Positions 4,641 to 33,850 of a stretch of DNA of 64,000 bases are shown piece by piece. The stretch covers positions 22,554-86,553 of the IMG/VR virus record IMGVR_UViG_3300028581_000026. One strand, given 5' to 3'. The notes under the pieces are model-generated. The model was not told the DNA's origin and ran no database searches. It saw nothing but the letters and a program-made list of their open reading frames with translations. The position numbers and the translations under genes are program-made. Origin of the DNA: a virus. How positions within the stretch are numbered: position 1 is the stretch's first letter; each line of letters opens with the position of its first letter.

Positions 4641-5987
4641 TTAATTAATTCTCATTACAACAAATCTATGTCTTTGACCATCCGAGGTTGTAACCATTTG
4701 TTCATCATAACTCGACAAAATTCTAATTCCATCAATATCTACCATCTCTTTAGCTATTTCATCAATATCCACATAATATTTCAAATCAGCACCCATATTT
4801 GTTAGATAATCAATTGGGCTTTCACTATCAACCAATGAATCAACTTTATCTTCAATCATTTCATCTGTTGGTTCGGTGTCAGGTTCAATACCATCAAGTT
4901 CCTCTTGAGCATTATCAATCAGTTCTTGAATTTCATCATATTTTTCAGAATATTCATCTGGGTCTTCAATTTCATCTTCCAAATTACTTTGTTGTTCTTC
5001 CAATTGACTAATATAATTTTCCAATTGTTCTTTTCTTTCTTCTTGTTCTTCTGTTAACTCAAAGTCATCAGAGTCAAACCAAGATTCTGGACTATCACGG
5101 ATACTATCTTCATAATGTTCTCTCATTTCATCTCTTACTTGGTCTTCATCAATGTATTGTGCTAAATCAACACCTTCAAGTCCAAGTTCTATCGTATATT
5201 GTAAAGCAGATTTTTCAGCGTCAGCCATAGTTCCAACAGCATATTCTTTCCCTCTATGTCCAACAACTTCAAACATACTCATCTCATAGTGTCTATATTT
5301 CATTGGTATGATAGAATATACATCGGCAACATCGTTAGTCAAATCATCAATTTCTTCTTGTAGATTATCAATTTCATTATATAATTCTTCCCTTTCTTCG
5401 GAGTCTGGGTCTAATTCAGCACCTTGTTGTACTAATTCTTCAATTCTTTCCTTTAAAGATTCAATTTCTTCTTTCGTATCTTCATCCATTTCATCTAGTT
5501 CTCCTTCACTAACCAAATATTGGTATAAGGCATTGACTATTAGTCCTTCGTCATCTATATCAGGATTATCCAAATCCCATTCACCACTTTCTTTTCTTTC
5601 TAGGGCTAATTCCTTTTTTTCTTGTTCCTCTCGTGCAATCCTTCGTTTTTCTATGGGTGTACCCCAATCAGTAACATAACCTTTTACAATGGTTTTACCA
5701 ATGTCAGATATCTTGGTATGTGATACATCTAAATTACCATAAATGTAAGCAACATTACCCAACTCAGTCATTTCTGGCATATCACTCAATTTTAAATTAC
5801 CTGTTATGTAAAGTGGTTTTCCTTTGAATTTTTTAATATAAGTTGCATCGGCTTGATAATACGCCATCTTCATTAATGTTCTATATTCATCTGGTGCCAT
5901 TATATAATACTCATAATCCTCATTTTGTTCTTTCAACAATTTGATTAACCTTTTGAATTGTTCTTCGTTTAATATTATTTTTCTCAT
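4641..5987 (-). CDS. acidic coiled-coil protein with putative capsid-targeting N-terminus
   Basis: Starts with MRKIILNEEQFKRLIKLLKE, a version of the basic N-terminal tag shared with other genes here; the LKE/Q or QNE/D site fits a T4-type (L/I)-x-E or related cleavage. Residues about 45-110 resemble strand-loop pentapeptide or leucine-rich pieces (PLYITGNLKLSDMP, YIYGNLDVSHTKISD). The rest is very acidic and predicted coiled coil (repeated Glu-rich heptads at about 160-220 and 310-380). This acidity suits a head-internal or scaffold-like protein. It overlaps the upstream 113-aa gene by 4 nt. Confidence 0.75.
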   Translation of the reverse strand: MRKIILNEEQFKRLIKLLKEQNEDYEYYIMAPDEYRTLMKMAYYQADATYIKKFKGKPLYITGNLKLSDMPEMTELGNVAYIYGNLDVSHTKISDIGKTIVKGYVTDWGTPIEKRRIAREEQEKKELALERKESGEWDLDNPDIDDEGLIVNALYQYLVSEGELDEMDEDTKEEIESLKERIEELVQQGAELDPDSEEREELYNEIDNLQEEIDDLTNDVADVYSIIPMKYRHYEMSMFEVVGHRGKEYAVGTMADAEKSALQYTIELGLEGVDLAQYIDEDQVRDEMREHYEDSIRDSPESWFDSDDFELTEEQEERKEQLENYISQLEEQQSNLEDEIEDPDEYSEKYDEIQELIDNAQEELDGIEPDTEPTDEMIEDKVDSLVDSESPIDYLTNMGADLKYYVDIDEIAKEMVDIDGIRILSSYDEQMVTTSDGQRHRFVVMRIN

Positions 5988-6325
5988 AATAGTTTTCTTA
6001 ATGTTCTTCTTATTTGTTCTGACATCTCTCTACCAGGATTTATATTATCTGATTTATCATCCTTAGTTGGTTGTCCACCACCAGTTCCAATTGGTTCATA
6101 TGTTACATTAGGTTCTTTATATTTGAATGGACCATCATTGAATTTGAATGGGGGGTCATCATCGTCACAATCATAATATCCTTTTTTGCAACAATCCAAC
6201 CATGTTCCCGCCATACTAAACATTTCTTGTGCTTGTTTATGATGAGGGTCTTTTCTCATTCTACCTTCATCGTGTTTAGGTTTTAATAATTTACTATATT
6301 TCTTTTTAATAAAATTAAGTCTCAT
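5984..6325 (-). CDS. hypothetical protein (113 aa)
   Basis: Not recognised. It begins with a basic segment (MRLNFIKKKYSKLLKPK), carries a CC pair and an Asp run (CDDDDPP), is rich in Gly/Pro/Asp in the middle, and ends in the basic helix SEQIRRTLRKLL. It overlaps the acidic coiled-coil gene by 4 nt. It may be another small virion protein, but I have no family evidence. Confidence 0.6.
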   Translation of the reverse strand: MRLNFIKKKYSKLLKPKHDEGRMRKDPHHKQAQEMFSMAGTWLDCCKKGYYDCDDDDPPFKFNDGPFKYKEPNVTYEPIGTGGGQPTKDDKSDNINPGREMSEQIRRTLRKLL

Positions 6326-6355
6326 TTTTCTTATTTCTTCTACTGATACCCCAAT

Positions 6356-6760
6356 TTATTTTGATAGTAATTCAGCAAACTCATAAAACTTGGGATCAGG
6401 TAAATGGTCATATTTTTTAATGAAATCATTTATCTTTTCTTCATTACTATTTGATGAAAAATTTCTTTGAGCAGGTAAATCTACCCCACTTTTATATTTC
6501 TTTTTCAATTCATCTACCTTATAGTGTGCGGTATTGTATATCCTGTGTAACATATTCAAATGTTTTTTATCACAAACATTATCACTTGGTGCTAACTCAT
6601 TCAAATGTTCATCTAGTTCCATCATAAAAGAATATGCTTCGTCAAAAGATGTGTAAGTATTATTTTCACCAATCGTAGGTTCGTTTAGTTTGGATTCATT
6701 TAACACCCTTTTAACCAACTTGGTTAAATCTCGTTCTGTACGTCTGATTATTTTTCTCAT
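6356..6760 (-). CDS. small protein with putative capsid-targeting N-terminus
   Basis: The start at 6760 is chosen because it gives the tag RRTERDLTKLVKRVLNE, almost the same as in the gene at 33443-33850. A longer in-frame extension would be hydrophobic and would run into the plus-strand nuclease gene. After the L-N-E/S site the 134-aa protein is a helical, charged sequence with no known domain. An AATAAATA element (plus strand; sense TATTTATT) lies 30 nt upstream at 6791-6798. Probably head cargo processed by the prohead protease (inference). Confidence 0.75.
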   Translation of the reverse strand: MRKIIRRTERDLTKLVKRVLNESKLNEPTIGENNTYTSFDEAYSFMMELDEHLNELAPSDNVCDKKHLNMLHRIYNTAHYKVDELKKKYKSGVDLPAQRNFSSNSNEEKINDFIKKYDHLPDPKFYEFAELLSK

Positions 6761-6817
6761 TAAAAAAGTATTTTTGTTTAATTTACATATAATAAATATA
6801 TCAGTAATTAGATATTT

Positions 6818-7420
6818 ATGGTTATGAATATTGGGATATATAAAATACAAAATAAAATAAACAATAAAGTTTATATTGGTAGTTCTATTGTTTTGAATAA
6901 AAGAAAGTATAAACATTTTTGGATGCTGAACAAAGGTGTTCACCCAAACATTTATTTACAGAAATCTTATAATAAAAATGGTACTGAGGTTTTTGAATTT
7001 GAAATATTGGAATTATGTGAAGAAAATGATTTAATTTCAAGAGAAAATTATTATATTAATTATTATAAGTCTAATGAGATGGAGTTTGGTTACAATTTAG
7101 CATTGGTTGGGGATTCAAGAAGAAATATTGTAAGCGATGAAGTTAAAATGAAATTATCAAAACATAATCAAATTAAAAATGGTAATTTTTCAAAATATAG
7201 TTTAATCAATTTGAAAAATAATATATTTAACATTTTTGATAACTTAAAGGATGGTGCTAGATATTTATTAGATAATGGGTTCGCTAATGGTAATGAAAAA
7301 AATGTTAGACAAACATTATCAGTTTGTTTGAGGGGTAAACCAATAGACAATGGTAATAAAAAATGTAATACAATCAGACAAACTTGTTATAGTCATAGAT
7401 TTGAAATCATAAACAACTAA
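6818..7420 (+). CDS. free-standing GIY-YIG homing-type endonuclease
   Basis: The N-terminal GIY-YIG catalytic core is clear: GIYKIQNKINNKVYIGSS, then the Arg-containing helix (NKRKYKHFWML), the conserved Glu-region (SRENYYINYYKS) and GYNLALVGDSRRN. The C-terminal part (about 120-200) looks like a NUMOD/IENR-type DNA-binding repeat ending in YSHRFEI. It lies on the plus strand inside a long minus-strand block, as expected for a mobile endonuclease gene inserted between genes. ATG at 6818 or 6824 could be the start. Confidence 0.9.
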   Translation: MVMNIGIYKIQNKINNKVYIGSSIVLNKRKYKHFWMLNKGVHPNIYLQKSYNKNGTEVFEFEILELCEENDLISRENYYINYYKSNEMEFGYNLALVGDSRRNIVSDEVKMKLSKHNQIKNGNFSKYSLINLKNNIFNIFDNLKDGARYLLDNGFANGNEKNVRQTLSVCLRGKPIDNGNKKCNTIRQTCYSHRFEIINN

Positions 7421-7434
7421 AAAACAAAACAATT

Positions 7435-7584: not shown

Positions 7585-7609
7585 TATTTTTTGATGGGGA
7601 GGTAAAATG

Positions 7610-7637: not shown

Positions 7638-7680
7638 TTTATATTGTCATAATTTTTTTGTATACATTAATTAAAAAATT

Positions 7681-10008: not shown

Positions 10009-11707
10009 CTATAAAGTTTGTATCTGGTGTTCTAATTAAGTTAAAGGATGGTTTATATATTTCAATTGAGCTATTATCAAATCTCAATGTTCTATTTATT
10101 TTTTTCCCTCTTTGTCCTGGTGTCATATATATTTCCTTAAGGTCATTAAAGATAATTTTCCCTTCAAGTTTCACCCCTTTATATTCAACAGAATAATTTG
10201 GTAGTTCAAATATATTATTATCCATTATATATTTAATCCGTTTATCCATTTCTTCCAAATATGAATCCCAAGTTATGTCCAATTGTTTATTAAACCTACC
10301 CAAACTTTGAACTCTAACCAATTCAATATTATCTTCATCTCCATATATTTTGTACTCCACAGAAGCTCTTTCCTCCCCTTCTATGTCACCAACCCTAATG
10401 GATATAATTATTGATTCTGGACGATTGTTGTAAGTTCTAACACAATTTGATTGGACAATACTTTCCATTGAATATTCTTGAAATGTTGTTAATAAGACTG
10501 GATAATAGTTATCCATTGGTTCTTCAACAATTTCCTTAAATCTTGGGTTATACATTCTTTGATATCTTGGATCTTTGAATTTGGCAACCTTCTCACTCCA
10601 AATGAAATGTTCTGAATTAAATTCGGCATATGTTTTTGATTTCCAAGTTACAGGTTCAAATTGACTAAGTTTATCTCTGAATTCCAAATGGTCAATGAAT
10701 GTATTATGATTGATTGAACCATTTATCATAAGTTTGAATATATCAAAACAATTTAATAACTCATTTTTGGAAAATGAATACATATAATACGGATAATAGA
10801 GATGTTCTATACCAGGCATTGGGGGTGATTCAACAATATATTTAATCACACTATCCTCCTTGGATAATATAAAATTATTACCAAATAATTCTAAAGCAAA
10901 TCTCAAATTATATATTCCCCTAACTGTTGTAACTGTATGTAGAACCCTTTTAATCTTATCACCATTCAATCTATTAACACTCATATAAGCATCAATGAAT
11001 TTGAACTTATGTTTCTTATATATTTTCTTGGTTATTTGGGGGTATGATGGTTTAAATATATGCCAATTGTTTGGTAATTTAACCCCAATTCCATCCAAAT
11101 AATGTTTATATATTCTGATGTCAGGACTAACAATTGAATTGTCTAGATTGGGGATATGTTCCAAAAATAAGTCAAAGCACTTATTGATTTCTTTTGTATT
11201 TAAATCAACTTCTTCAAAAGTTTGTGGTTTAATATTATTTGGTTTAAAATATTGGAATATAACCTTGGAGAGAGTTGAAAGTGGGGTTAAATACCAAGTA
11301 TTTTTATGGATAGTATTAAATTTCTTTTTTCTTCGTATTGTATTATTACCTGTGTATATTTCATTTTTCTTGTAATTGTAAGTTACAAATTTAATGAACA
11401 TATGTTTATTAAAATACTTTTGTCCCACCATTCTATGATTACTATAAAAATAGAACTTGAGTGAGACCTTATCTTCTGAGGTTTCTACTTTAATCCTATA
11501 TCTATCGTGTCTACATTCAGCAAATTGATTTCCGTAATTACTAACAAAAGATTTGTCATCAAATAATGTTTCCAATAAACTGTCAAAAATATATTCCGGC
11601 TGAAAAAAGAATGGGTTGTCTTGTTTCGGTTTGTCTATTATGTCACAATAATTCTTATATGTTTTTGTTAGATATTTTTCAATCTTATATTCGTATATTA
11701 CCCCCAT
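9992..11707 (-). CDS. PcfJ-like protein
   Basis: The 571-aa protein carries at about residues 400-490 the PcfJ-type signature: a leading TFQEYSMESIVQSNCVRTY block, then SIIISIRVGDIEGEERASVE and VRVQSLGRFNKQ (conserved N-C-V-x-x-Y, S-x-R and G-R-x-N). PcfJ-like proteins are widespread on conjugative plasmids and large phages; their activity is not established to my knowledge. The N-terminal 380 residues are Tyr/Phe/Lys-rich without a recognised domain. First gene of the run leading into thioredoxin and glutaredoxin. Confidence 0.7.
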   Translation of the reverse strand: MGVIYEYKIEKYLTKTYKNYCDIIDKPKQDNPFFFQPEYIFDSLLETLFDDKSFVSNYGNQFAECRHDRYRIKVETSEDKVSLKFYFYSNHRMVGQKYFNKHMFIKFVTYNYKKNEIYTGNNTIRRKKKFNTIHKNTWYLTPLSTLSKVIFQYFKPNNIKPQTFEEVDLNTKEINKCFDLFLEHIPNLDNSIVSPDIRIYKHYLDGIGVKLPNNWHIFKPSYPQITKKIYKKHKFKFIDAYMSVNRLNGDKIKRVLHTVTTVRGIYNLRFALELFGNNFILSKEDSVIKYIVESPPMPGIEHLYYPYYMYSFSKNELLNCFDIFKLMINGSINHNTFIDHLEFRDKLSQFEPVTWKSKTYAEFNSEHFIWSEKVAKFKDPRYQRMYNPRFKEIVEEPMDNYYPVLLTTFQEYSMESIVQSNCVRTYNNRPESIIISIRVGDIEGEERASVEYKIYGDEDNIELVRVQSLGRFNKQLDITWDSYLEEMDKRIKYIMDNNIFELPNYSVEYKGVKLEGKIIFNDLKEIYMTPGQRGKKINRTLRFDNSSIEIYKPSFNLIRTPDTNFIDELLF

Positions 11708-11732
11708 ATAATTTCTTTTAGAAATTAATAAT

Positions 11733-11768
11733 AAAAAATGGGGAGAATATCAAGTATCTCCCCATTTT
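11733..11768 (-). terminator. Rho-independent terminator
   Basis: AAAATGGGGAGA / TCTCCCCATTTT stem with A- and T-runs on either side, just after the stop of the DUF932 gene at 11773. Confidence 0.9.
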
Positions 11769-11772
11769 ATTT

Positions 11773-12522
11773 TTAATAGACAAGAGTGTCGGCAAGTTCC
11801 CAGAGTTTGGTGTTCATGGTGTTGGTCGCCATAATGTTCTTGAGACCTTTGAGAGAGGTTTTCTTGCCAGCCTGACTTCTGTACTCAAGTCCGCCTTTTA
11901 CGAACTTCTCTTGTACAATGTTGAAGGTAGTCCAAAGGTTGTCATCATTGTCGCCAGTTCTTTGTGGAGTAATCAACTCCTCATAATCCACGAATGGAAC
12001 TGAACCCATTCCCCACTTGATGATTGATGCGTCCTTTGCAAACTGAATCTTCTCACCTTCCGTCATCATTCTGTCCATCATCTTATCAACTGAGCTTTGG
12101 ATGAGTGGAAGTTTCTTGGAGAAACTCTCAGTAAGTTTCTTAACTTCCTCACTATCAAATCCCATGTGACGGATATTGAATTGTTCGGCTGTTGCAGTTG
12201 GGACTGTAAGACCGTTGGAACAAACCAATCTGAAGAGCCCAGCACCTACATTCAGAGTTGTCATACCATTGTGGCTGTTACGGATTATTGCCTCAACTAA
12301 TGTGTCACCAACTTTTGGTAGTTCTCCGTTTCTGAACCTCAACTCGTGAGTACCATACAAATCCTTACCATTTTGTTTGACTGAGGAGAGTTCCCATCCT
12401 TGGTTGGTAAAGTTTTCCACTATATCCATAGTTGGTACAAACATGTATTTGTTGGACATTTTAGGATCTGCTGAAGTTGCGAATACTGCTGGAGCGATAG
12501 ATTTGATTTCTTGGATTGTCAT
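11773..12522 (-). CDS. DUF932 (phage/plasmid-like, TIGR03299-type) protein
   Basis: The 249-aa protein matches the DUF932 pattern: KYMFVPTMDIVENFTNQGWE, GTHELRFRN, VEAIIRNSHNG, GLFRLVCSNGLTVPTA, and later WTTFNIVQEKFVKGG. The family occurs on phages and plasmids; function unknown. Codon use is clearly richer in G/C third positions than the neighbours, suggesting high expression or separate origin. It has its own 50-nt upstream block (12547-12594) and its own terminator, so it is a single-gene transcription unit. Confidence 0.88.
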   Translation of the reverse strand: MTIQEIKSIAPAVFATSADPKMSNKYMFVPTMDIVENFTNQGWELSSVKQNGKDLYGTHELRFRNGELPKVGDTLVEAIIRNSHNGMTTLNVGAGLFRLVCSNGLTVPTATAEQFNIRHMGFDSEEVKKLTESFSKKLPLIQSSVDKMMDRMMTEGEKIQFAKDASIIKWGMGSVPFVDYEELITPQRTGDNDDNLWTTFNIVQEKFVKGGLEYRSQAGKKTSLKGLKNIMATNTMNTKLWELADTLVY

Positions 12523-12546
12523 ATGATTTATGTTTTTAATTGGTTG

Positions 12547-12594
12547 ATAATTAACTTACAATACTATAAACCTAAGATTGGGGTGGAAAGTTCC
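12547..12594 (-). promoter_or_regulatory. repeated promoter block, copy 1 (DUF932 gene)
   Basis: Sense strand: GGAACTTTCCACCCCAATC, then TTAGGTTTATAGTATTGTAA and GTTAATTAT. Nearly identical to copy 2 and partly to copy 3. It contains a TATAGT -10-like hexamer and a TAGTATTG close to the Bacteroidetes TAnnTTTG element. It lies about 25-70 nt before the ATG at 12522. Confidence 0.6.
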
Positions 12595-12607
12595 TATAGT
12601 TTAAAAT

Positions 12608-12832
12608 TTATTTTACTAATTCAATATAAGTACTCCCCATAAATGAACCTTTAAGGTTGAAAGTTAAGGTAGAAAATAAACCTGAATGATTACTTACTTT
12701 GAAGTATCTACCTGATGGAGTAATTTCTGTTACAACACCTTCTTCACCATCAACATTTAAAAATTTTTTATGGAGAACTGAATCTTGTCCTACTGAAATA
12801 GTAATTCCCATTTTGTTAGTGAATGTCTTCAT
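12608..12832 (-). CDS. hypothetical small protein (74 aa)
   Basis: Beta-rich, with a TNKMGITISVGQDSVL start and an EGVVTEITPSGRYFKV segment that looks like a small SH3-like or OB-like barrel. Not recognised further. It has its own upstream promoter block (copy 2) that matches the DUF932 one. Confidence 0.65.
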   Translation of the reverse strand: MKTFTNKMGITISVGQDSVLHKKFLNVDGEEGVVTEITPSGRYFKVSNHSGLFSTLTFNLKGSFMGSTYIELVK

Positions 12833-12856
12833 ATCAGATATATTTTTTATTGGTGG

Positions 12857-12904
12857 ATAATAAACTTACAATATTATAAACCTAAGATTGGGGTGGAAAG
12901 TTCC
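12857..12904 (-). promoter_or_regulatory. repeated promoter block, copy 2
   Basis: Same block as copy 1, differing at only a few positions. It has a perfect TATAAT within TTTATAATATTGTAAG, 25-72 nt before the ATG at 12832. Confidence 0.6.
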
Positions 12905-12922
12905 CTAAAGATTTATATTTTT

Positions 12923-13114
12923 TTAAAATTTGGTTTTGAACCGTAAATTCAATTCATCGAATAAAGAATTAATCTTATCAATTTCCTTTTGGTAAAATTC
13001 CTTTACCTCTGTATATTCAGTTTTATCCATTTCTCTAACGAAATGATTTCTGAGAGTAAGTGTGTGTGCTGTCAAGAGAACAAATTGTTCCCCAGATAAT
13101 TTGAAGTTTTTCAT
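12923..13114 (-). CDS. hypothetical small helical protein (63 aa)
   Basis: All-helical composition (LSGEQFVLLTAHTLTLRNHF, then EVKEFYQKEIDKINSLFDEL). Not recognised. It has its own upstream block, a diverged third copy of the repeated promoter. Confidence 0.6.
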   Translation of the reverse strand: MKNFKLSGEQFVLLTAHTLTLRNHFVREMDKTEYTEVKEFYQKEIDKINSLFDELNLRFKTKF

Positions 13115-13135
13115 AATGATGGATTTTAATATTAA

Positions 13136-13185
13136 ATAATCAACTTACAATACAATAAACCAAGGTCACCCCCAGTTAGTTCCAA
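13136..13185 (-). promoter_or_regulatory. repeated promoter block, diverged copy 3
   Basis: Keeps the core GGTTTATTGTATTGTAAGTT and the following ATTAT; the upstream GGAACTTTCC-CCCC part is only partly conserved. It lies 22-71 nt before the ATG at 13114. Confidence 0.5.
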
Positions 13186-13201
13186 GAAGTTCAAAATATT
13201 T

Positions 13202-13480: not shown

Positions 13481-13493
13481 AATAATTTATTTT

Positions 13494-15056
13494 TTATTGT
13501 ACATAAAACATTCCATCTTTTCTTTCAATCAATTTCTCTTTCAAAACTGGTGGTATCATAGGATTACTACCTCTAAGTACTATAAAATTCAATTCTTCCA
13601 ATTCACTGATACTTTCTGGTAGTTGTTTCACTAGGGGACAATTAAGAATAGAAAGAAATGTCAAGTTTTTCAAGTTTGAAACTGTATTTGGGATATTTTT
13701 AGCTGAAGCGTCAAATACCAATGAAGTTAGTTCGGTAAATCTACCAATAGAATCTGGTATTTCAAAAGCTCTGTTTTGGTCTTTTGTACTGTTAATAAGT
13801 TGTAAAATTTTAATATTAGCAGGTAATTTATCTAACAAAGCTTCAAAACCAAATATTTCAAAAATTCCTTTACTAGTTGGGTAGGTAATGATTGCTTCCT
13901 CATTACTACTCATAACATATTTTTTAAATAACATCTCAAATCCCTCTCTGAATATTGGTAATCCATCAAATATTTCTCTCATTATACCATTCTGACCAAA
14001 ATATTTACCCAAATCAATTTGGCGGTCTAATAAATCCATAAATTGTTCTTTAATGAAATTAAATTGGAATCTATTTTTTGGTAATCCCGACTTTGGTGAT
14101 ACATTACCACCGTCATTTGTTGGTAAAATAACATACAATGGGGAATCTATAGCACATTTTGTTTTAACATTTTCATAAGGTGTTGTGTAATAATCAAAGT
14201 TACTTACATATCCTTTTTCACCTTTTAATAGAGCGTTACCTGGTGCCGAAGTACACCAATTAGACTCACCATCATTTTTCAATTGACTTCCACCATAAAA
14301 TACTGCCGCGTGTCTAGCCAATGGATTTTTAGGATTAATTTCAACAACAACCCAATCTTTACCTTGATAAACTATCGGACAATCAAATTTACTATAAGGA
14401 TTATCACCTTGAACTTTTTCAGCTTCTTTCCTAACCTGTTTATTTATATTTTTTTCCGGTATTTGATAATTCATACAGACATCACCCAAATCTTTTGGTG
14501 TTAATTTATTGATGTCTTTTTTATCTAAAGGTAATAAATCTTTAAATTTCTTTAATTGATGGAATTTAATTAAATCAGTTTTAAGACTAGGTAAATCCTC
14601 AATAAAAAGTCTACGATATTCTGTAACTGCTCTTTTGTATTCTGGTGATTTGGGGTCTAGTTCTTTTATATTACTTGGTAATTTTGCGGCATAATAAGAT
14701 AATATCCAATTTGCATATTCACCAACTTTCACTTTTTCCATATCATCTATACTAGCACCATCAATATCAAAATTAGATGGCTCAGTTCCAGCTATACAAG
14801 GTGATGTTGCACAAGGTATTGTTGTTGGGTCGGAAAATATGATTTGTTTTAATACTTGAAATGGTGTTATTTGTACTTGTTCCAATTCATTTGTTTGGTC
14901 ATTAAGTTTAGTCATTGTACTACCAGCCAATTTACCTTTTGCATTTGGATTTTTTCTGAGGTCTTCTTCTGATGGTATTACCAATTTATCATACAACATC
15001 TTGAATCTAGATGTATTTTCAAGTATTAATCGTTTTAGTATTGATTTGAATCTCAT
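13494..15056 (-). CDS. large leucine-rich-repeat protein with putative capsid-targeting N-terminus
   Basis: Begins MRFKSILKRLILENTSRF, a basic helix ending in I-L-E/N, the T4-type prohead protease pattern. Residues about 240-350 form a domain I know from other large-phage proteins: WVVVEINPKNPLARHAAVFYG, SNWCTSAPG, PLYVILP, RFQFNFIKEQFMDLLDRQID. The C-terminal about 120 residues are leucine-rich repeats (FTELTSLVFDA, LKNLTFLSILNCP, LEELNFIVLRGS). A TATTTATA element is 15 nt upstream. The layout suggests a head-packaged protein possibly acting in the host at infection; this is an inference. Confidence 0.75.
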   Translation of the reverse strand: MRFKSILKRLILENTSRFKMLYDKLVIPSEEDLRKNPNAKGKLAGSTMTKLNDQTNELEQVQITPFQVLKQIIFSDPTTIPCATSPCIAGTEPSNFDIDGASIDDMEKVKVGEYANWILSYYAAKLPSNIKELDPKSPEYKRAVTEYRRLFIEDLPSLKTDLIKFHQLKKFKDLLPLDKKDINKLTPKDLGDVCMNYQIPEKNINKQVRKEAEKVQGDNPYSKFDCPIVYQGKDWVVVEINPKNPLARHAAVFYGGSQLKNDGESNWCTSAPGNALLKGEKGYVSNFDYYTTPYENVKTKCAIDSPLYVILPTNDGGNVSPKSGLPKNRFQFNFIKEQFMDLLDRQIDLGKYFGQNGIMREIFDGLPIFREGFEMLFKKYVMSSNEEAIITYPTSKGIFEIFGFEALLDKLPANIKILQLINSTKDQNRAFEIPDSIGRFTELTSLVFDASAKNIPNTVSNLKNLTFLSILNCPLVKQLPESISELEELNFIVLRGSNPMIPPVLKEKLIERKDGMFYVQ

Positions 15057-18545: not shown

Positions 18546-19919
18546 TTATTGAGTTTTTCTATTATATGAAAATAAATTTTTTATTCGGTCAAATTCTTCA
18601 TTTAAGATATTGATTCTTTTCTCATCAATAGTTTCCATTTTTAAATTCAACTTTCCAACTTCCTCAAATTTTTCATCAAATACTGGTTGTGATACGCGTT
18701 TGTAAGATTGGTCTTTTAGTTTCTTTAGAGTATTCTTTTTTCTCATCTTATTGAATCTTTCATTGGCATCAGATTCTAAGGCGTTTCCACCAGGTGCATT
18801 TCCAGTTGTTGAGTCTCCTTTAAAGTATTTATCCATACGTTTTTCATTAAACTCAATTCCGTCAGAAACTGGGAAATTTTGTCCTCCAATTTCATAATTA
18901 AAGTCTTCCAACTCATCTGTCATCTCATAAGCTTTTTTACTCATTTCTCCCAATTCGCCATTCCCAACTGGAAACTTTTTAGGGTTCATTTCATATTTTC
19001 CTTTTGATCCGTCTTTAAGATAATCTTTCATCTTTTTACCCAAAGATGTCATATAGTCTTTGTTTTCTTTTCCAGATTCTCTATGAGCTTTTTCATATGT
19101 TACCATACCTCTAGGTTTTTCCAATGATTTCATTTTTGTCTTTTGTTCATTAACAATATTTTCAATTAAATCAACCATATCATCCTCACTTAATCTGATG
19201 ATATCTCCACGACTATCTTTAATACGATATTCAATAGATTCTTTTAGTTTAACACCACGTCCTTTTAAAATGTCCTTTCTTGTTACTTTACCATCACCAG
19301 TTAAATCGGGGAATTTCTTACCTTCTTTGGTCTCTTCACGATGTTTGCCTTTACGAAGAAGTTTGAAATCCTCTGAGTCAAGTTTTCCATTTTTGTTCTT
19401 GTCCAAATTTCTTTGATTACCTTTAAGTTGTCTACTTTCAACATAATCAAATTTGTTTTTACGATTTAAGTCATGTGATCTCTCGTTTAATTTACTATAA
19501 CCACACTCATTACATTCACCTTCATTCATTTTACCAACACCACATTGTTCGCATAATCTTCCTTCAGTAACTAAATCATCGTTACCACCTTCAGGGTCTA
19601 AGAAATACTCGCCATTGTCGTCATCATCTTCAATTTTGCCCAATAAATCTTTTAACATATTTTCAAATTCACGTTTTCGTGTTATACCTCCAATGTCGCC
19701 ATCTTTAAGGTCATCAAATTTTTTACCTGATTTAAATTTACGCAATCTAGTTCCTTTTGGTAAAAAAGGAGTGTTGTCCCCCATGCCTTTCTCGTCTCCA
19801 AAAGCTTCTTCAATTTCCATTTCTTTTATTTTACCATACAACATATCAGCCTTGTCTTTCAAGGTTTCATTAAGGTTATGTCTAATAGCTTTTTTTAAGT
19901 ATTTGTCTGAGTATTTCAT
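18546..19919 (-). CDS. head-cargo-like protein with zinc ribbon, EF-hand loops and internal tag copy
   Basis: Starts MKYSDKYLKKAIRHNLNE/T, a basic segment ending in L-N-E. Then comes an acidic part with a zinc-ribbon-like CEQCG...CNECG pair (about 120-140), two EF-hand-type loops (DKNKNGKLDSEDF and DLTGDGKVTRKDIL) and, near residue 245, a second copy of the tag motif (IIRLSEDDMVDLIENIVNEQ). The rest is Lys/Glu-rich. TATTTATA is 13 nt upstream. It resembles multi-domain internal head or scaffold proteins of large T4-like phages; exact role unknown. Confidence 0.7.
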   Translation of the reverse strand: MKYSDKYLKKAIRHNLNETLKDKADMLYGKIKEMEIEEAFGDEKGMGDNTPFLPKGTRLRKFKSGKKFDDLKDGDIGGITRKREFENMLKDLLGKIEDDDDNGEYFLDPEGGNDDLVTEGRLCEQCGVGKMNEGECNECGYSKLNERSHDLNRKNKFDYVESRQLKGNQRNLDKNKNGKLDSEDFKLLRKGKHREETKEGKKFPDLTGDGKVTRKDILKGRGVKLKESIEYRIKDSRGDIIRLSEDDMVDLIENIVNEQKTKMKSLEKPRGMVTYEKAHRESGKENKDYMTSLGKKMKDYLKDGSKGKYEMNPKKFPVGNGELGEMSKKAYEMTDELEDFNYEIGGQNFPVSDGIEFNEKRMDKYFKGDSTTGNAPGGNALESDANERFNKMRKKNTLKKLKDQSYKRVSQPVFDEKFEEVGKLNLKMETIDEKRINILNEEFDRIKNLFSYNRKTQ

Positions 19920-20662: not shown

Positions 20663-21331
20663 TTATGGCATTTTAGTTAATTTTCTATTACCTAATACTT
20701 TGGACCATTTTGATTTGAACTTTTCATAATAAGTTTTTAGTTTTTGTATCATTTCCATAAAATCATCATCGGTATTAATCATTTCCCCTCTGATATATAT
20801 TCCATTTTCTTCACCTAATGAAAATATAAAATCAATTTCAAACTCAATTAATTTACCAGACCATTCAACTAAATTTGGATAAACATTTAATTGATTAAAC
20901 TCAGCTAAATCAGATACTTCAGTTACAAATTCATTCATTGTTTCTTGAAAAGCCACTTTTTCATCTGTAGTTATTTCAAGTTCTGATTGTTTTTTCCCAT
21001 GAAAGACTAAAATACCCCCAGATATTCTATATGCCTGTCTTTTATCTCTTGGTGATGATTTAGTTTCTTCATCATAAGACATATCCCTATCAGGTTGTCT
21101 CCTATCTCCCCCTCTATCAGATTGTCTTTGTCTACCAAAATCCATATCATCTTCAATTGCTGAAGCTACATTAATTTTTTTGGTTATATCACCAGAAGTT
21201 GGGACAACACCTTGTTCTAATATTAGGCTATATTTTTGTCTGATTTCATTCATTTCATAAATTGTATTACTACTAGACAACATATTTTGTGATGCTTTTA
21301 GTAATCTCTTTATTTCATCATGTTTGTTCAT
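20663..21331 (-). CDS. putative processed head protein (222 aa)
   Basis: Residues 1-45 are a helical leader (DEIKRLLKASQNMLSSSN, then EIRQKYSLILE/Q) ending in an I-L-E site of the prohead-protease type. An Arg/Asp/Gln-rich linker follows (DRGGDRRQPDRD) and then an alpha/beta domain (about 100-222). It overlaps the amidase-like gene by 4 nt. Likely a virion protein; no closer match seen. Confidence 0.65.
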   Translation of the reverse strand: MNKHDEIKRLLKASQNMLSSSNTIYEMNEIRQKYSLILEQGVVPTSGDITKKINVASAIEDDMDFGRQRQSDRGGDRRQPDRDMSYDEETKSSPRDKRQAYRISGGILVFHGKKQSELEITTDEKVAFQETMNEFVTEVSDLAEFNQLNVYPNLVEWSGKLIEFEIDFIFSLGEENGIYIRGEMINTDDDFMEMIQKLKTYYEKFKSKWSKVLGNRKLTKMP

Positions 21332-22959: not shown

Positions 22960-22971
22960 ACTTTATTTTTT

Positions 22972-22979
22972 TATAAATA
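22972..22979 (-). promoter_or_regulatory. late-promoter-like TATTTATA
   Basis: Exact TATTTATA (sense) followed by AAAAAAATAAAG, 12 nt before the ATG at 22959. Confidence 0.5.
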
Positions 22980-22993
22980 TTAGTTAATTGTTA

Positions 22994-26619: not shown

Positions 26620-27619
26620 TTTTTAAAAATTTTACACACTTTTTAATAACCTCATCTTTTTCTTTTCTATACTCAGAATCCCATATCACTAACACATCAA
26701 AATTATGTCTATTGGCTAATTTAATCTTAACCTCATCTTTTTTCCAAATATCTTCAGATGTTATACTTTTACGGAAAGGATTTGGGGTATCTGTAGTTAT
26801 AAAAATATTAGGATTTGCATGATAACTATCTCCATTGTATTCAATAATTTTTTTATTAAAAGTATCGGTAAAGTCATATCTATAAAACCCTTCATCACCA
26901 GTTAATACAAATTCACCACCTTTTTTAGCAAACATAACATAATTCAATTCTTCAATATTTTCGTAATATTTTAATAATTCAAAAAACAAATCTTGTGACA
27001 CTTTTGAATATCCTGATTTTAAATTACCGTTTTTATATAGTGATTGTTGCCATTTTTTTTGTCTTTCAAAAAATATCTTTTTACCCTCATCTTCCCCATA
27101 TTTCTCAATACATTTAACTAAACTAAATTTATTTTGGAATTCTGAAACTTTATTTTTTGACTCTTCAACTGAAAATCCTTTTTTTATCCAATATTCAACA
27201 CTTCTTGGTGAGTGTAATTTACCTTCTTTAAGTTTTTTTTCTTGAAAAAGTTTAACTCCATCTTTTTCACCATATTTTATTATGAATGACCTTTCAGTGT
27301 TCATCAAGTGTAATTCTGTTTGAAGTTTAGCATCTTCTAATGAAAATCCTCTACTTATCCAATATTCAATTAAATTTGGTTTCATTTCTTTAACTTTCTT
27401 TTTCGATTCTTCTTCAGTTAAACCCCTTTGAATCCAATATTTAACACTAAATGCAGAACCTTTAGCAATAGTAATTCCCGCATCTTTTAATCTTTTAACA
27501 ATTGTTGATGTATCAACATTGTATTTTTTGGATATAAAAGTTGTGGATTTCATTTCATTGATATATAAATTTATTATATCTTGAATTTGATTTTCCGTAA
27601 AATTACACATTTTTCCCAT
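26609..27619 (-). CDS. Vsr-like (EDxHD) homing endonuclease inside the split gp46 locus
   Basis: The N-terminal helix-turn-helix (about 7-50) is followed by three copies of a 22-residue module (YWIQRGLTEEESKKKV, YWISRGFSLEDAKLQT, YWIKKGFSVEESKNKV). The C-terminal catalytic domain has YDF (249-251), IIEYNGDSYHANP with E260, D264 and H267, and DVLVIWDSEYRK. This fits the EDxHD family related to Vsr mismatch nucleases found with fractured phage genes. It lies between the intein halves, overlapping the C-part start by 11 nt, and presumably spreads the split-intein allele. Confidence 0.88.
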   Translation of the reverse strand: MGKMCNFTENQIQDIINLYINEMKSTTFISKKYNVDTSTIVKRLKDAGITIAKGSAFSVKYWIQRGLTEEESKKKVKEMKPNLIEYWISRGFSLEDAKLQTELHLMNTERSFIIKYGEKDGVKLFQEKKLKEGKLHSPRSVEYWIKKGFSVEESKNKVSEFQNKFSLVKCIEKYGEDEGKKIFFERQKKWQQSLYKNGNLKSGYSKVSQDLFFELLKYYENIEELNYVMFAKKGGEFVLTGDEGFYRYDFTDTFNKKIIEYNGDSYHANPNIFITTDTPNPFRKSITSEDIWKKDEVKIKLANRHNFDVLVIWDSEYRKEKDEVIKKCVKFLKNEN

Positions 27620-29425: not shown

Positions 29426-29651
29426 TAATTATAACCTCAGATTCGGTGATAATAACAACCCTGGCACCACACGAAAGGAGGGGTTTATCATTTCCACCAT
29501 ATATAACTTTACTCGGACCTAATATCTCAACTTCATTACAATAGGTATTCTTCTTACCTTGTTTTACGGTTATAACAGGTAAGTTTGTTCCTTTTGTTTT
29601 ATTGGAACGGATGTGATGTTGATTGACATGGATATAGGTTTTCATTACCAA
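29406..29651 (-). CDS. hypothetical protein (81 aa)
   Basis: Beta-rich (TYIHVNQHHIRSNKTKGTNL; EVEILGPSKVIYGGNDKPLL; ARVVIITESEVIIKE). The motif order (HVNQHxIRxN, CNEVxIxGPxxVIY) is one I associate with conserved small proteins of large phages, function unknown. Start may be Met1 or Met3. It overlaps the upstream tagged gene by 7 nt. Confidence 0.65.
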   Translation of the reverse strand: MVMKTYIHVNQHHIRSNKTKGTNLPVITVKQGKKNTYCNEVEILGPSKVIYGGNDKPLLSCGARVVIITESEVIIKEIPPQ

Positions 29652-30016
29652 TTACGATCTGTTTTGTTGCGAATAAGTTCAATTTCTTTGATGCGTAATC
29701 TTATAGATGTTATTTGTTTGAAGTAGAATTCAATTTCAGAATAAATTGGCTCAAAATTATAGTGAGACATAAGTCCTTCAGAATAAGTATTTACTGTAGC
29801 AACTAAACCTCTTTCATTTTCACCCAAATCAATTACATCTATTTTTACAATAGAATCAATCCAATCAGTAATATCTTCATTATATTCATTTGGATTATCA
29901 TTTTCTTCAATATCCGTTTTAATGGTATTGAGTATTTCATTAATTGTTTTTTCAACCTTTCTTCTTTGTTTCTCGCTGGTTTGTTCTTCTAATATTTTTC
30001 TGATAATATCTCTCAT
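29645..30016 (-). CDS. small protein with putative capsid-targeting N-terminus (123 aa)
   Basis: Starts MRDIIRKILEEQTSEKQRRK: a basic amphipathic helix with I-L-E/E at residues 8-11, a short version of the shared tag. The rest is a small alpha/beta domain (DWIDSIVKIDVIDLGENERG) ending in a basic helix. The late-type element (AATAAATA on the plus strand) lies 11 nt upstream at 30028-30035. Probably head cargo; molecular role unknown. Confidence 0.65.
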   Translation of the reverse strand: MRDIIRKILEEQTSEKQRRKVEKTINEILNTIKTDIEENDNPNEYNEDITDWIDSIVKIDVIDLGENERGLVATVNTYSEGLMSHYNFEPIYSEIEFYFKQITSIRLRIKEIELIRNKTDRNW

Positions 30017-30027
30017 TGTGTTTTAAT

Positions 30028-30035
30028 AATAAATA
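30028..30035 (-). promoter_or_regulatory. late-promoter-like element (TATTTATT)
   Basis: Sense TATTTATT, one mismatch to TATTTATA, 11 nt before the ATG at 30016. It lies just inside the start of the region between this gene and the 39-aa gene. Confidence 0.4.
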
Positions 30036-30039
30036 TTGA

Positions 30040-30159
30040 TTAAATCTTGTTTTTCATCTTTAATACCTTATAGATATGTTCGGTAATATATTGGGTATCA
30101 CCATTTGGTGCCATAATCAAATATCCATCCTTTAATTCTTTTAATACTACAAATTTCAT
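30040..30159 (-). CDS. small hypothetical protein (39 aa)
   Basis: MKFVVLKELKDGYLIMAPNG...YKVLKMKNKI. A beta-hairpin-like opening and basic tail. Its ATG is 1 nt from the stop of the ABC-exporter-like gene, fitting translational coupling. Not recognised. Confidence 0.5.
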   Translation of the reverse strand: MKFVVLKELKDGYLIMAPNGDTQYITEHIYKVLKMKNKI

Positions 30160-30160
30160 A

Positions 30161-30994
30161 TTATATTTTTATTCGGTTAACAACATCTTTCATTCTCGCA
30201 AAGATTTCCATAGCAATAGGAAATGACATCAGAGAGATTAAAAACTGATTAATGTAAGCATACATCGCAACAGCTTCACCCTGGGTCATATTAAAATTAT
30301 AACTAGTAAATATCACCAAGGCTAACACCAAAAAGATACTTTTAACAATATTCAACGACGCCCAATTCTTACCCTGTATTGTTGACATACCGACAATAAC
30401 TTTAGCTCTCCTCTTATAAAATGTTTCAATGGTTGTATCATCATTTGTTTCCATTGTCTTCGTCTTTTGTTCGTAGTGGGTATGTGAGACTCGTGTGGCT
30501 TGAGCAATCTTGTTATAGAATAAATAAACAATCAATGATATTGGTAGAATACAACTAATGACAACAAATCCTGTTAATGTATGTTGATAAAATATAAAAA
30601 CCAAACTTCCAACAATATTAATTAATGCCATTACAAAATAATGAATGTCACTCTCCAAGAAGTTAATCACATAATTGGTTAAATCAGTTCTTGCTATCTT
30701 AACGGATGTTTCCGCATCTTTATTGTGTTTAAGGAATCTAAATATAATATCATTATACATCTTTGTATAAACCTTGGTATCATATACCATTCTCTTATAC
30801 ATAAAAATATTTTGTAATATATTAATAACCAAAAAAACACCCAACCACATATAATTTTTAACCAATAAACCATCAATCGTCTTTCCCAAGATAAAAGGTT
30901 CAACCAAAAATAATAGTTGGGCTATTATGATGTATAGATATATAAACATCAAAGAAAATTTATATTCTTTGATGATATTATAGATGTATTTCAT
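30161..30994 (-). CDS. ABC-exporter transmembrane domain without ATPase
   Basis: The 277-aa protein has six hydrophobic segments in the arrangement of a type I ABC exporter (ABC_membrane): IAQLLFLVEPFILGKTIDGL, a long cytoplasmic loop with DLTNYVINFLESDIHYF, paired segments at about 125-165, ETFYKRRAKVIVGMSTIQGK and a final pair near 220-265. The nucleotide-binding domain is absent and no separate one is encoded nearby. It may pair with a host ATPase, act as a dominant-negative subunit, or alter the envelope. Such a gene is unusual in phages. Confidence 0.8.
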   Translation of the reverse strand: MKYIYNIIKEYKFSLMFIYLYIIIAQLLFLVEPFILGKTIDGLLVKNYMWLGVFLVINILQNIFMYKRMVYDTKVYTKMYNDIIFRFLKHNKDAETSVKIARTDLTNYVINFLESDIHYFVMALINIVGSLVFIFYQHTLTGFVVISCILPISLIVYLFYNKIAQATRVSHTHYEQKTKTMETNDDTTIETFYKRRAKVIVGMSTIQGKNWASLNIVKSIFLVLALVIFTSYNFNMTQGEAVAMYAYINQFLISLMSFPIAMEIFARMKDVVNRIKI

Positions 30995-31056
30995 TTTTTA
31001 ATTAGATAATGGTATTCTTGGAGTAGTGCTTGATAATCTTTATCTAGTTTGTTCAT
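30991..31056 (-). CDS. possible tiny leader ORF (21 aa)
   Basis: MNKLDKDYQALLQEYHYLIKK, whose TGA overlaps the ATG of the ABC-like gene (ATGA). Helical and charged. It may serve translational coupling only; short length makes it uncertain. Confidence 0.3.
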   Translation of the reverse strand: MNKLDKDYQALLQEYHYLIKK

Positions 31057-31249
31057 GTATATAACCTCTATTTTCTGTGTATTTGAATAATATTTGATTT
31101 TCTTTTAATTCAGGAAATCCGAATGTATAATTTTGTACCATTATGGTTTTCCAATTTTCACCAGAGTCTTCAGCATTATAAGTGAATTCTCTTGGATTGT
31201 CCAAGTTTATTAGAAAAACTGGACGAGTTATTTCAATTATATTTTCCAT
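31040..31249 (-). CDS. hypothetical protein (69 aa)
   Basis: Beta-type composition (IIEITRPVFLINLDNPREFT; MVQNYTFGFPELKENQILFK). Not recognised. It starts 1 nt from the stop of the next upstream gene, so it is an operon member. Confidence 0.55.
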   Translation of the reverse strand: MENIIEITRPVFLINLDNPREFTYNAEDSGENWKTIMVQNYTFGFPELKENQILFKYTENRGYIHEQTR

Positions 31250-31447
31250 CTATTTTATTAATTCAATTTGTTTTTTTAACTCATCACATATTTCATATTC
31301 TTCGTGTTTAATGAAATATGGTAGTAAATAATTTTCTAATATCTCCAATCTTTTATGAGTTTCAAGTCCATCCATTTTGAAATCTGATTTCTTAACATCG
31401 TTATATGTCTCCCACATTACTTTGTTTAATAAATCGTAATTACTCAT
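31250..31447 (-). CDS. hypothetical protein with UvrB/C-like helical end (65 aa)
   Basis: Start at 31447 (MSNYDLLNKVMWETYN) overlaps the upstream gene by 8 nt; an earlier ATG at 31468 is possible. The last 25 residues (FIKHEEYEICDELKKQIELI) resemble the UVR interaction motif (EEYExAxxLRDxI). Function unknown. Confidence 0.6.
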   Translation of the reverse strand: MSNYDLLNKVMWETYNDVKKSDFKMDGLETHKRLEILENYLLPYFIKHEEYEICDELKKQIELIK

Positions 31448-32303
31448 ACCACCTTTGTTTAAACTCATTTTTTTTGTTATTAAACTCCTCTTCAGTCAAT
31501 ATGATTAATTCATTAGGATCATTGAACATTTCTTCAATGTGGGGTTGAGTACCAAGCAAATCCCCACTTTCATAAGCTTCCTTTATTTCGGTTACTTCCT
31601 CAAGGTATTTTTTATAAGTTTCCATCAATTTATTATTTGGGTTTGGTGGATTAACGATATAATTGTTTAATAAGTTCCAATCATCCAATAATGTATTTAA
31701 CACTTCAAAACATAATTCTTGTGTAATTTTACTTCGTTCATAAGATCCCTTTCTACCTTGAGTTCCAGTTTTGCTTCCCCTTGGTGCTGGTTGGTGGTGA
31801 CATTCCGTATTCCCATTCTTGCAAACAGGTCTTGGTATCCAAGTATTACTATTTGTCCATATATCTGTGGGTTTGGCTCGTTCATCACCATATACGCAAT
31901 ACCAAATGGTATGTCTTGTGAATTCTTGCATCCAGGGCATCTTTCTCAACATCCCCCTTGGATTTTCAATAAAGAATACCATATTGGGATTTATCTTTAA
32001 CCATTCCTTTATTAAAGATATAAAATGTTGATTAACGATATCACATTTCTTGGCATATTCACTTTTGGGTTCAGTTCCGTTTCTATGGTGGGATATTGCC
32101 GCAATTGTGTATGTTGTGCAATCTGGGGATGCCCATATAAAGTCCGGAACGAAGGGAACATCATTTAAGGTTAATTCACCAATATCTTTTGATAAATTAA
32201 TTCCCTCATATTGTTCCCAATCAACCGAGAATACCTCCATTCCCAATGATTCCGCAACCTTTCCTATTGACCTGCTCCCAGCAAATAATTCCAATACTTT
32301 CAT
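31440..32303 (-). CDS. Dcm-like DNA cytosine methyltransferase with altered catalytic motif
   Basis: Motif I (VLELFAGSRSIGKVAE) at 3-18 and ENPRG at 113-117 place it in the C5-methyltransferase fold, but motif IV reads SPDCTTY (C62) instead of PCQ. Phage proteins with the SPDC(T/S) variant are common and their chemistry is unclear to me. The basic middle (PAPRGSKTGTQGRKGSYERS) may contact DNA. It could methylate or otherwise modify pyrimidines. It overlaps genes at both ends (4 and 8 nt). Confidence 0.8.
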   Translation of the reverse strand: MKVLELFAGSRSIGKVAESLGMEVFSVDWEQYEGINLSKDIGELTLNDVPFVPDFIWASPDCTTYTIAAISHHRNGTEPKSEYAKKCDIVNQHFISLIKEWLKINPNMVFFIENPRGMLRKMPWMQEFTRHTIWYCVYGDERAKPTDIWTNSNTWIPRPVCKNGNTECHHQPAPRGSKTGTQGRKGSYERSKITQELCFEVLNTLLDDWNLLNNYIVNPPNPNNKLMETYKKYLEEVTEIKEAYESGDLLGTQPHIEEMFNDPNELIILTEEEFNNKKNEFKQRWYE

Positions 32304-32650: not shown

Positions 32651-32659
32651 ATTTGTATA

Positions 32660-33067: not shown

Positions 33068-33096
33068 TAATTTTTATGTTAAATCGTTTTCCATCG

Positions 33097-33393
33097 TTAA
33101 ATTATATTTGTTTTGTCATTTATTATACAAATTGACTCATCCAACTTTTCACATATTTGTTTCAATTCTTCGGTCTTGAAGTCATCCAAACAAAACCATT
33201 CTCGTTCAATATTATAATGTTTAAATCTGAAATGGAGAGCTTTTTCAAGTTGGGTGGGGTACTTTGTTTCGTATTCAAGTATAAGGATTAAATTTGGGGA
33301 ATTCAACTCCTTAAGCCTATTTTTAACCTTTCTTTTTGTATAACCAATCTTAACCTGATCTGAGTTATCTTTGATAAAGTAAACAAATCCCAC
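33097..33393 (-). CDS. T5orf172/MUG113-type GIY-YIG nuclease domain protein
   Basis: The 98-aa single domain: GFVYFIKDNSDQVKIGYTKR, KNRLKELNSPNLILILEYET, and LEKALHFRFKHYNIEREWF (conserved E-x-x-LH-x-x-F and E-W-F), the T5orf172 variant of GIY-YIG. Possibly a free-standing nuclease. The start codon is GTG inside a 10-bp hairpin (33386-33421), so expression is probably controlled. Confidence 0.85.
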   Translation of the reverse strand: MGFVYFIKDNSDQVKIGYTKRKVKNRLKELNSPNLILILEYETKYPTQLEKALHFRFKHYNIEREWFCLDDFKTEELKQICEKLDESICIINDKTNII

Positions 33394-33421
33394 TACTTTT
33401 TTATATTAAAATAGTGGGATT
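33386..33421 (-). promoter_or_regulatory. start-codon hairpin
   Basis: AATCCCACTA / TAGTGGGATT perfect 10-bp stem with a 16-nt AT-rich loop. The GTG start of the T5orf172 protein lies in the 3' arm, and the following TTGTTTACTTT makes it terminator-like. Confidence 0.65.
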
Positions 33422-33442
33422 ATATAAAAGGTAAATATTATG

Positions 33443-33850
33443 TTATTTATTTTCCAATATGGTGTCAGCGACAATTGAATAGTAGAAGTCAGACAATTCA
33501 TCATCTTCCATTTCTTTTATATCATCAAACCCTAAAGCATGTAATAAATTTGATATATCGTAATAATAGTATGGGATATCAATTGAACTGGGAAGTCCTT
33601 GTAACCATTCAATTAATGCTTTCTTTTGCCCATATCTTTTGATTGCCCAACCATACTCATCCAAAAATACCTCAAAAAGTTGGGTGAATTTGTTATCAAC
33701 TTTCCTTTTGAAGTCATATCCTTCAAAACTAATTCTATCTTTCAAGAATTTTTTTAATTGGTCGTAGGGGTCATCTTCTCTAATCTCATTGATTGTTCTT
33801 TTGATTAGTTTGGTTAAATCAGATTCGGTTAATCTTCTAATTCTTTTCAT
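33443..33850 (-). CDS. small protein with clearest capsid-targeting tag (135 aa)
   Basis: Start at 33850 gives RRLTESDLTKLIKRTINE/I, the best copy of the shared tag and an I-N-E cleavage site. A longer start (33874) adds only eight hydrophobic residues and would include the promoter. After the tag comes a helical domain (RISFEGYDFKRKVDNKFTQL, PSSIDIPYYYYDISNLLHAL) with an acidic end. TATTTATA is 12 nt upstream. Likely packaged in the head and processed (inference). Confidence 0.75.
   Translation of the reverse strand: MKRIRRLTESDLTKLIKRTINEIREDDPYDQLKKFLKDRISFEGYDFKRKVDNKFTQLFEVFLDEYGWAIKRYGQKKALIEWLQGLPSSIDIPYYYYDISNLLHALGFDDIKEMEDDELSDFYYSIVADTILENK

Follow-up and report, generated by a model that had tools for sequence, protein, structure and literature searches.

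In phage T4, gp21 is specific for L/I-X-E and the function of the targeting sequences has been described (PMC9026906), and the T4 protein Alt is cut after ITE-6 (PMC5694885), as given in the sections of these papers that we draw on. According to parts of another account, gp21 relatives cut 19 head proteins each after E in phiKZ and 201phi2-1, and nine substrates are given for SPN3US (PMC10052503). The bS21 huge phages of freshwater Bacteroidetes have complete genomes of 293-331 kb with 31-34% GC, and their bS21 gene sits among the head genes but is encoded on the other strand; in the sections of this report used here, capsid delivery is raised for bS21 itself only, and a term search of them found no mention of N-terminal tags (Chen et al. 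2022, PMC9723584). The present analysis concerns a window of 64,000 nucleotides (bases 22554-86553 of the 86,553-base IMG/VR virus record IMGVR_UViG_3300028581_000026, labeled G000), in which genes with unrelated bodies begin with short N-terminal tags. The data showed that the tags are shared, modular and interchangeable and end in L/I-x-E, that the clade of the record encodes an S77 protease, and that its capsid protein carries the same motif. With a probability of roughly 80%, these tags are T4-like capsid-targeting propeptides, greatly multiplied; we infer that they bind the core and are cut at their end, and that their cargo is carried in the virion and injected.

An earlier, sequence-only reading of the window had listed six tagged genes and a longer leader at 21331. 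All seven N-termini were found at the starts it had claimed, on the minus strand. The tags are given below in window positions, where aa stands for amino acids and a slash after an E marks the end of the tag or a predicted cut.

33785..33850, minus strand: tag MKRIRRLTESDLTKLIKRTINE of the ESDL class, N-terminus of the 135-aa protein 33443-33850
6695..6760, minus strand: tag MRKIIRRTERDLTKLVKRVLNE of the ESDL class, N-terminus of the protein 6356-6760
5928..5987, minus strand: tag MRKIILNEEQFKRLIKLLKE, N-terminus of the 448-aa protein 4641-5987
15018..15056, minus strand: tag MRFKSILKRLILE, N-terminus of the 520-aa leucine-rich-repeat (LRR) protein 13494-15056
19866..19919, minus strand: tag MKYSDKYLKKAIRHNLNE, N-terminus of the 457-aa protein 18546-19919
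19134..19202, minus strand: second, internal ESDL-type tag IIRLSEDDMVDLIENIVNE, aa 240-262 of the 457-aa protein 18546-19919
21215..21331, minus strand: 39-residue leader ending SLILE/Q, N-terminus of the 222-aa protein 20663-21331
29984..30016, minus strand: tag MRDIIRKILEE of the RILREE class, N-terminus of the 123-aa protein 29645-30016
685..858, minus strand: 58-residue leader ending ININE/ARWYNT, in a 305-aa protein running off the window (record 22494-23411)

The relatives of the window point to a known group of phages. A baseplate-region protein of the window had 393 relatives in IMG/VR (80 kept), on contigs of up to 322 kb. A 1098-aa structural protein of the window had no relative in the phage collection. 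In the relative G003 a bS21 gene, matched to PF01165 above the cut-off, lies among the head genes in reverse orientation; the same arrangement was seen by eye in G004 and G006, and the G000 record is without that region. This arrangement of the relatives' head module matches the description of the freshwater Bacteroidetes huge phages with bS21 (293-331 kb), and the G000 record is, as judged by features of its relatives, probably a fragment of this clade. The bS21 protein of G003 itself carries no tag.

Six of the seven tags described earlier are 11-22 residues long, and the seventh is 39. The claim that their genes are otherwise unrelated stood, as none of the seven matched another outside the tag in BLAST against seven clade contigs, and the matches of the 33850 and 6760 tags to other tagged genes were confined to the tag region or extended little past it. 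The body of the 33850 protein matches phrog_11100 from residue 31, i.e., past the tag. The start at 6760 is an ATG internal to a longer frame, and it is favored because the tag begins there (36 bits with a hidden Markov model, HMM). It is further supported as the real start by the gene at 6818-7420 on the plus strand, the start of which overlaps the part of the longer frame upstream of 6760, and which we take from its motif to encode a GIY-YIG-like endonuclease. The alignment of tagged proteins from related phages, which had been proposed as a check, showed that L/I/V-x-E is kept at the tag end, while the remainder of the tag drifts. The orthologs of the 4641-5987 protein in G003 and G004 have the tag end IVE/Q. 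The LRR protein, for which only identical copies (4 loci) were present in the viral collection, ends its tag in LILE, and four homologs in LILE, LITE, LVTE and LITE. The 19919 protein has LNE and its homologs LNE (including the G003 ortholog), LKE and INE, with T following each, and its internal ESDL tag is also present in the G003 and G004 orthologs. The 21331 leader ends in LILE and those of four orthologs in ISE, ITE, LTE and LTE, with Q next in each. The protein at record 22494-23411 has homologs in G003 and G024 (IMG/VR 3300031951_000001) with the ends LLSE/SKWYNT and LISE/SKWYNT, and with GIFDPTG in G003; it had no Pfam match, and we presume a resemblance to pre-toxin domains.

The tags had been described as ending in (L/I)-x-E. 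The bare motif proved equally common inside proteins, being present in 0.310 of the N-termini of the record versus 0.302 of internal windows, or about 30% of any 30-residue window, and for this reason its counting was dropped as evidence. What exceeded chance was the sharing of whole tag sequences. Proteins without body homology were compared in pairs over a 24-residue window at a similarity score of at least 34, after removal of hydrophobic (Sec-like) N-termini, and the pairs were counted at the N-terminus, position 60, position 36 and the C-terminus. In this order the counts were 13/1/1/5 in G000, 103/10/10/16 in G003, 59/8/6/10 in G004, 17/6/3/8 in G006, 87/9/8/17 in G024, 30/2/0/5 in G040, 14/3/1/6 in G041, 11/1/2/0 in Flavobacterium phage immuto, and 29/4/3/10 in the first 159 kb of contig G042 (IMG/VR 3300037087_000760), while the controls gave 4/2/4/4 (T4), 0/2/2/1 (crAss001), 1/0/0/1 (part of phage G) and 11/4/3/3 (contig G039, IMG/VR 3300031418_000006). 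Hence, strong N-terminal matches outnumbered internal ones by 13 to 1 in G000 and by about 10 to 1 in the 322-kb relatives, and the excess was absent in crAss001, in the part of phage G and, except for a few pairs, in T4. As it survives the removal of N-termini with a hydrophobic stretch, the excess is not that of Sec signal peptides. The third-position (synonymous) codons vary at conserved tag residues, which shows that selection acts on the protein. For C-terminal tags no clear class was seen by eye or in the C-terminal column of the pair test, which were the only checks made. The element (F/H/L)G(L/M)E(A/D/T/G/S)(I/L) recurs at the N-terminus of several G039 proteins and may be a propeptide motif of the phiKZ kind; this contig had no S77 or Gp23 match.

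The ESDL class was searched in IMG/VR with a pattern restricted to residues 1-16 (one open reading frame, ORF, shorter than 40 aa was dropped), and its 22-residue tag was found on at least 146 distinct ORFs from at least 120 IMG/VR stretches. Among the matches listed, residue 20 is I, L, V or M in 146 of 146 ORFs and residue 22 is E in 140, residue 21 is free (K in 46, N in 41, S in 27), and the information content amounts to 3.4 bits for the E, 1.4 for the position after it (mostly Q), 0.5 for the second and 0.1-0.3 from there on. The conservation of the ESDL tag ends at the E. The bodies of these listed ORFs form at least 111 families, 88 of them singletons, and the uniform I/L/V/M at P3 is not the A/S-x-E motif of the phiKZ type. 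When the MNLQE class was searched on residues 1-14 only (MNLQExIxRIxxMM), [LIV]xE was present in residues 15-25 of 109 of the 117 ORFs, compared with 12/117 to 23/114 in five later windows; 106 of these 109 have the E at residues 17-19, and the bodies form 47 families. In the EEEK class L/I/V-x-E was present in 46 of 47 ORFs, versus 3-7 of 46-47 in later windows. In the MNLQE and EEEK classes the motif is kept while its spacing varies, and so it behaves more like a recognition site than like a fixed helix.

Peptidase_S77 (PF03420), the gp21 family, was matched above the curated cut-off in three of 20 relatives (G003, G004 and G006, all above 200 kb), and it was present in 11 of the 16 tag-recruited contigs of at least 100 kb. 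A portal gene was found in exactly the same 11 contigs; the other five had neither, from which it follows that the head module is lacking there. The S77 match was positive for T4, immuto, Mel-JY01 and LR756508, and negative for crAss001 and phage G. In the properly aligned rows (the G040 row was the wrong gene and was ignored), ELNHP and G(I/V)SSRG are conserved between the clade proteases and T4 gp21, with ELDHP in immuto and G041. The head module of the relatives contains a portal, a gp67-like protein, the S77 protease, an acidic scaffold and a T4-like capsid protein, of which the gp67-like protein and the scaffold had no family match and were named from position and likeness. The gp67-like protein starts with MKFGIIKSKIEKVLLES, and the scaffold has LTE/Q. 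At the column of FLTE/A of T4 gp23, which we take to be the T4 cleavage site, the major capsid protein has E in 82 of 82 sequences and NQAS[FHY]LINE in 79 of 82 (five of 80 capsid loci were without a usable N-terminus and were dropped), and cleavage is predicted at LINE/A. The comparison supports a match between the tag ends and this predicted cleavage site. Together with the S77 protease of the clade and the orthologs keeping L/I/V-x-E, it also supports the earlier interpretation of the tags as T4-like head-import signals.

To call tagged genes across genomes, class HMMs were used, which gave 23 hits among 9540 decoys over six classes. They marked 49 of 365 ORFs in G003, 44 of 335 in G004, 41 of 348 in G024, 12 of 207 in G006 and 12 of 113 in the G000 record, compared with a single ORF each in T4 (of 252), crAss001 (of 101) and the part of phage G (of 99). 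Because the HMM of the MMKYD class was built from two seeds and is unreliable, the counts without it are 11 (G000), 45 (G003), 43 (G004), 10 (G006) and 38 (G024). Two of the 12 calls in G000 look false, at record 18831, a protein that we take to resemble SmpB, and at window 26609-27619, which is endonuclease-like. On the other hand, seven G000 tags were missed (6760, owing to the choice of start, 15056, 19919, 21331, and record 22494, 11611 and 13975), of which 6760 is backed by the match at its inner start and the others by orthologs or internal repeats. Tagged genes cluster, with 24, 18 and 19 neighboring tagged pairs where shuffling gave means of 6.4, 5.7 and 4.8, and in G003 they lie mostly at both contig ends, at a distance from the head genes (238-256 kb). 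The best reading of these data is a tag system that has probably expanded to roughly 40 genes per genome, with several classes and modular swapping.

The swaps named here were judged by eye, since in the HMM-based calls some cases of "none" were missed tags and some class differences were differences of label. The bodies of the proteins at G003 37716 (MKIIITELQYKLLQE/Q) and G004 225079 (MSLQDTIRRILREE/) are 62% identical, G003 59100 carries an EEEK tag where its homolog in L266 carries an ESDL tag, and the neighboring paralogs G003 79695 (...RILSEQ) and 80163 (...FLVEQ) have PPVTSGTT after both tags. The junction of differing tags on homologous bodies lies near the E. Thus, these homologs and the number of ESDL body families both show transfer of tags between unrelated proteins.

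The cargo was scanned in 82 proteins, taken from 114 called by HMMs (G000, G003, G006 and G024) together with the window genes that the HMMs missed. Seven Pfam families were matched, with a peptidoglycan-binding domain in five proteins and one protein each matching Acb1, TseH, GH19 chitinase, LRR and others; the PHROGs matches were endolysin-like, endonuclease VII and RNA-ligase. The Acb1 match (anti-CBASS, PF23474, above the cut-off, with a weak match to the 2'-5' RNA ligase superfamily) is a G003 protein (L090:9710-10273) with the tag MELNEQLTKIKTMMGINE/, which makes this homolog a candidate virion-delivered anti-defense protein. The lysin-like or peptidoglycan-binding proteins, the Acb1/2H-phosphoesterase homolog, the nucleases and the LRR proteins carried by the relatives would fit roles early in infection.

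Some tags are repeated within a protein. The 636-aa protein at G024 29734-31644 (L358:9834-11744) has an N-terminal tag and ES(V/I)LxE or ESxLxEE units at residues 139, 227, 337 and 446; this architecture, with repeats about 100 residues apart, was unique among the 15 sets scanned. The 786-aa protein at record 11611-13971 (L002:311-2671), which had no family match in PHROGs, is built of a tandem module, one copy per tag, with tags at residues 12 and 561, each followed by GYYW(I/V)DL...HCGRS...SLRS...HLTA. Such repeats suggest polyproteins that would be cut into several cargo units inside the head.

In the mechanism that we propose, the N-terminal part of the tag, mostly a short basic amphipathic helix, would bind the scaffold that forms the core inside the prohead, and the core-bound tag would carry its protein into the prohead during head assembly. 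A gp21-family serine protease would cut past the E of L/I-x-E, so that the cargo is released and the tag removed, and the cargo would remain in the head after DNA packaging, be ejected with the genome and act in the new host. A broader version, which we advance tentatively, is that of a general head-import code, in which interchangeable tags on about a tenth of the genes, together with tag-cut polyproteins, would allow tens of effectors, including the Acb1-like protein, to be delivered ahead of all phage gene expression.

Several observations weigh against the capsid-targeting propeptides. No virion proteomics of the clade was found in the literature, and many of the tagged bodies are small and uncharacterized, with seven Pfam families in all matched among the 82 proteins, so that their role in infection is a prediction. 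S77 was present in 3 of 10 random contigs, and the co-occurrence of tags and protease amounts to about one observation because the contigs belong to one clade, with portals 73-86% identical. The gp21-like protease that had been expected elsewhere in the genome is encoded by the relatives, but no S77 match was found in the G000 record itself, in which the genes that could be named include no head module. In the short ITE class (MKIIITE...), the tag end is less clear. The repeated N-termini of other S77 phages differ in sequence, so it is function rather than sequence that would be common to them. Finally, the 211-kb contig G042 has MKxxxxFxEFINE-type N-termini, no detectable S77 protease and only Gp23 fragments (small ORFs), although the contig may not extend to the head genes; this is the one loose end, as the computational predictions tried were otherwise all favorable and support the proposal. 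About a dozen MKxxxxFxEF(I/V/L)NE-like starts, very like MKTYQEFIAE of T4, were seen in the first 159 kb of this contig.

The tags could also be protease-cut propeptides that serve as degradable scaffold adaptors or assembly aids, their cargo being mostly cleared or inert and not injected. The core proteins gp22, gp67 and gp68 of T4 are indeed cut and mostly removed, according to parts of PMC9026906, and the start of the clade's own gp67-like protein and the LTE/Q of its scaffold would fit this idea. Core proteins would not be expected, however, to show at least 111 body families on a single tag, with lysin-like and Acb1-like domains among the cargo, or to be encoded in clusters that in G003 lie away from the head genes, and we regard this explanation as unlikely. 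It is quite improbable, too, that the tags send proteins to a membrane, the tail or a phage-made compartment, with the terminal E as part of a binding helix instead of a cut site. Basic amphipathic helices bind membranes as well, and tag cleavage is so far a deduction, but a near-constant L/I-x-E at varying spacing, as in the MNLQE and EEEK classes, is better explained by a recognition motif, and the same motif stands at the cleavage column of the capsid protein.

The clustering of tagged genes, and the paralogy of some bodies, might instead suggest that the N-termini are common only through paralogy or a copied DNA element, such as a mobile leader or a regulatory site. This is largely refuted by the many unrelated body families, the free synonymous codons and the differing tags on homologous bodies, and we consider it very unlikely. 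A chance collection of N-termini with L/I-x-E, which the frequency of the bare motif could produce, is refuted by the roughly tenfold excess of N-terminal similarity and its near absence from the controls, and can practically be dismissed. Capsid-targeting propeptides thus remain the preferred explanation of the tags.

The sequence-only observation is confirmed and is much larger than reported. Its count of at least six tagged genes held, but as an undercount, since the record holds at least seven further tags to the left of the window. Among these are a tag at record 13975, which is double, and MKIIISEQQLKQLITE, MSLKQTIRRILREE, MRNLIRRILREE, MKLKETIRRILRED, MRNLIRKILREE and MKRIVRLTEQDLVRLVKRVINE. 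Elsewhere in the window (901-3433 and 31440-32303) there are four genes that we take to be DNA-methyltransferase-like from their starts (MNVLSLFDG, MNVLNLYAG or MKVLELFAG), two of which are near-tandem copies around a third.

If this proposal is correct, the tag would reveal from sequence alone which of the uncharacterized huge-phage proteins ride in the virion and act first, which is where anti-defense proteins are expected. The T4 targeting principle would widen from a handful to tens of proteins per virion, and several new short tags would become available for loading foreign proteins into phage heads.

The system was finally compared with those already described. No paper in the text collection searched contained the strings LTESDL, MKIIITE or NLQENI, and titles and abstracts on capsid targeting with jumbo phages, metagenomes or prohead proteases showed no such tags. 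One tag compared by BLAST with named phages had no match even at E 10. The bS21 huge phages are, by features given in parts of their description (PMC9723584), the same clade as the tag-bearing contigs. The giant phages phiKZ, 201phi2-1 and SPN3US are similar in that many head proteins are cut after E by gp21 relatives (PMC10052503), while their motifs are S-x-E (phiKZ) or A-x-E (SPN3US) and the SPN3US propeptides are mostly long, 111-254 residues (PMC10052503); a short modular tag that recurs on dozens of unrelated genes is not mentioned in the parts of this literature used here. Immuto has repeated N-termini of its own, MKKQILSEQFxRMQxLAGIITE and MENFDLKKFLVENKLTxNSKLLKE (counted with a pattern rather than a calibrated model), as has contig G040 with MKITKRQLKRIIREE, and these differ in sequence from the clade tags. 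The closest likeness is to T4 (IPI, IPII, IPIII and Alt, with gp21), which has the short N-terminal propeptide ending in L/I-x-E, the S77 protease, the same motif at the same capsid column and tags interchangeable on different proteins. The pair comparison in T4 itself found two MKTYQEFIAE/A proteins, presumably IPII and IPIII, and two MELITE/LF proteins, with MELITE presumably that of Alt, which loosely resembles the MKIIITE class. Homology of the clade tags to T4 tags is not claimed, as the class HMMs found no similarity to MKTYQEFIAE or MELITE beyond the false-positive level (1 of 252 T4 ORFs). The clade differs from T4 in its tag sequences, in having several classes per genome, in its number of tagged genes (about 40, against a handful in T4), in its internal tag repeats and in its Bacteroidetes hosts. 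Hence, the comparison supports the view that this system is an expanded, modular variant of the T4 capsid-targeting principle, with predicted virion location and cleavage of the tagged proteins.

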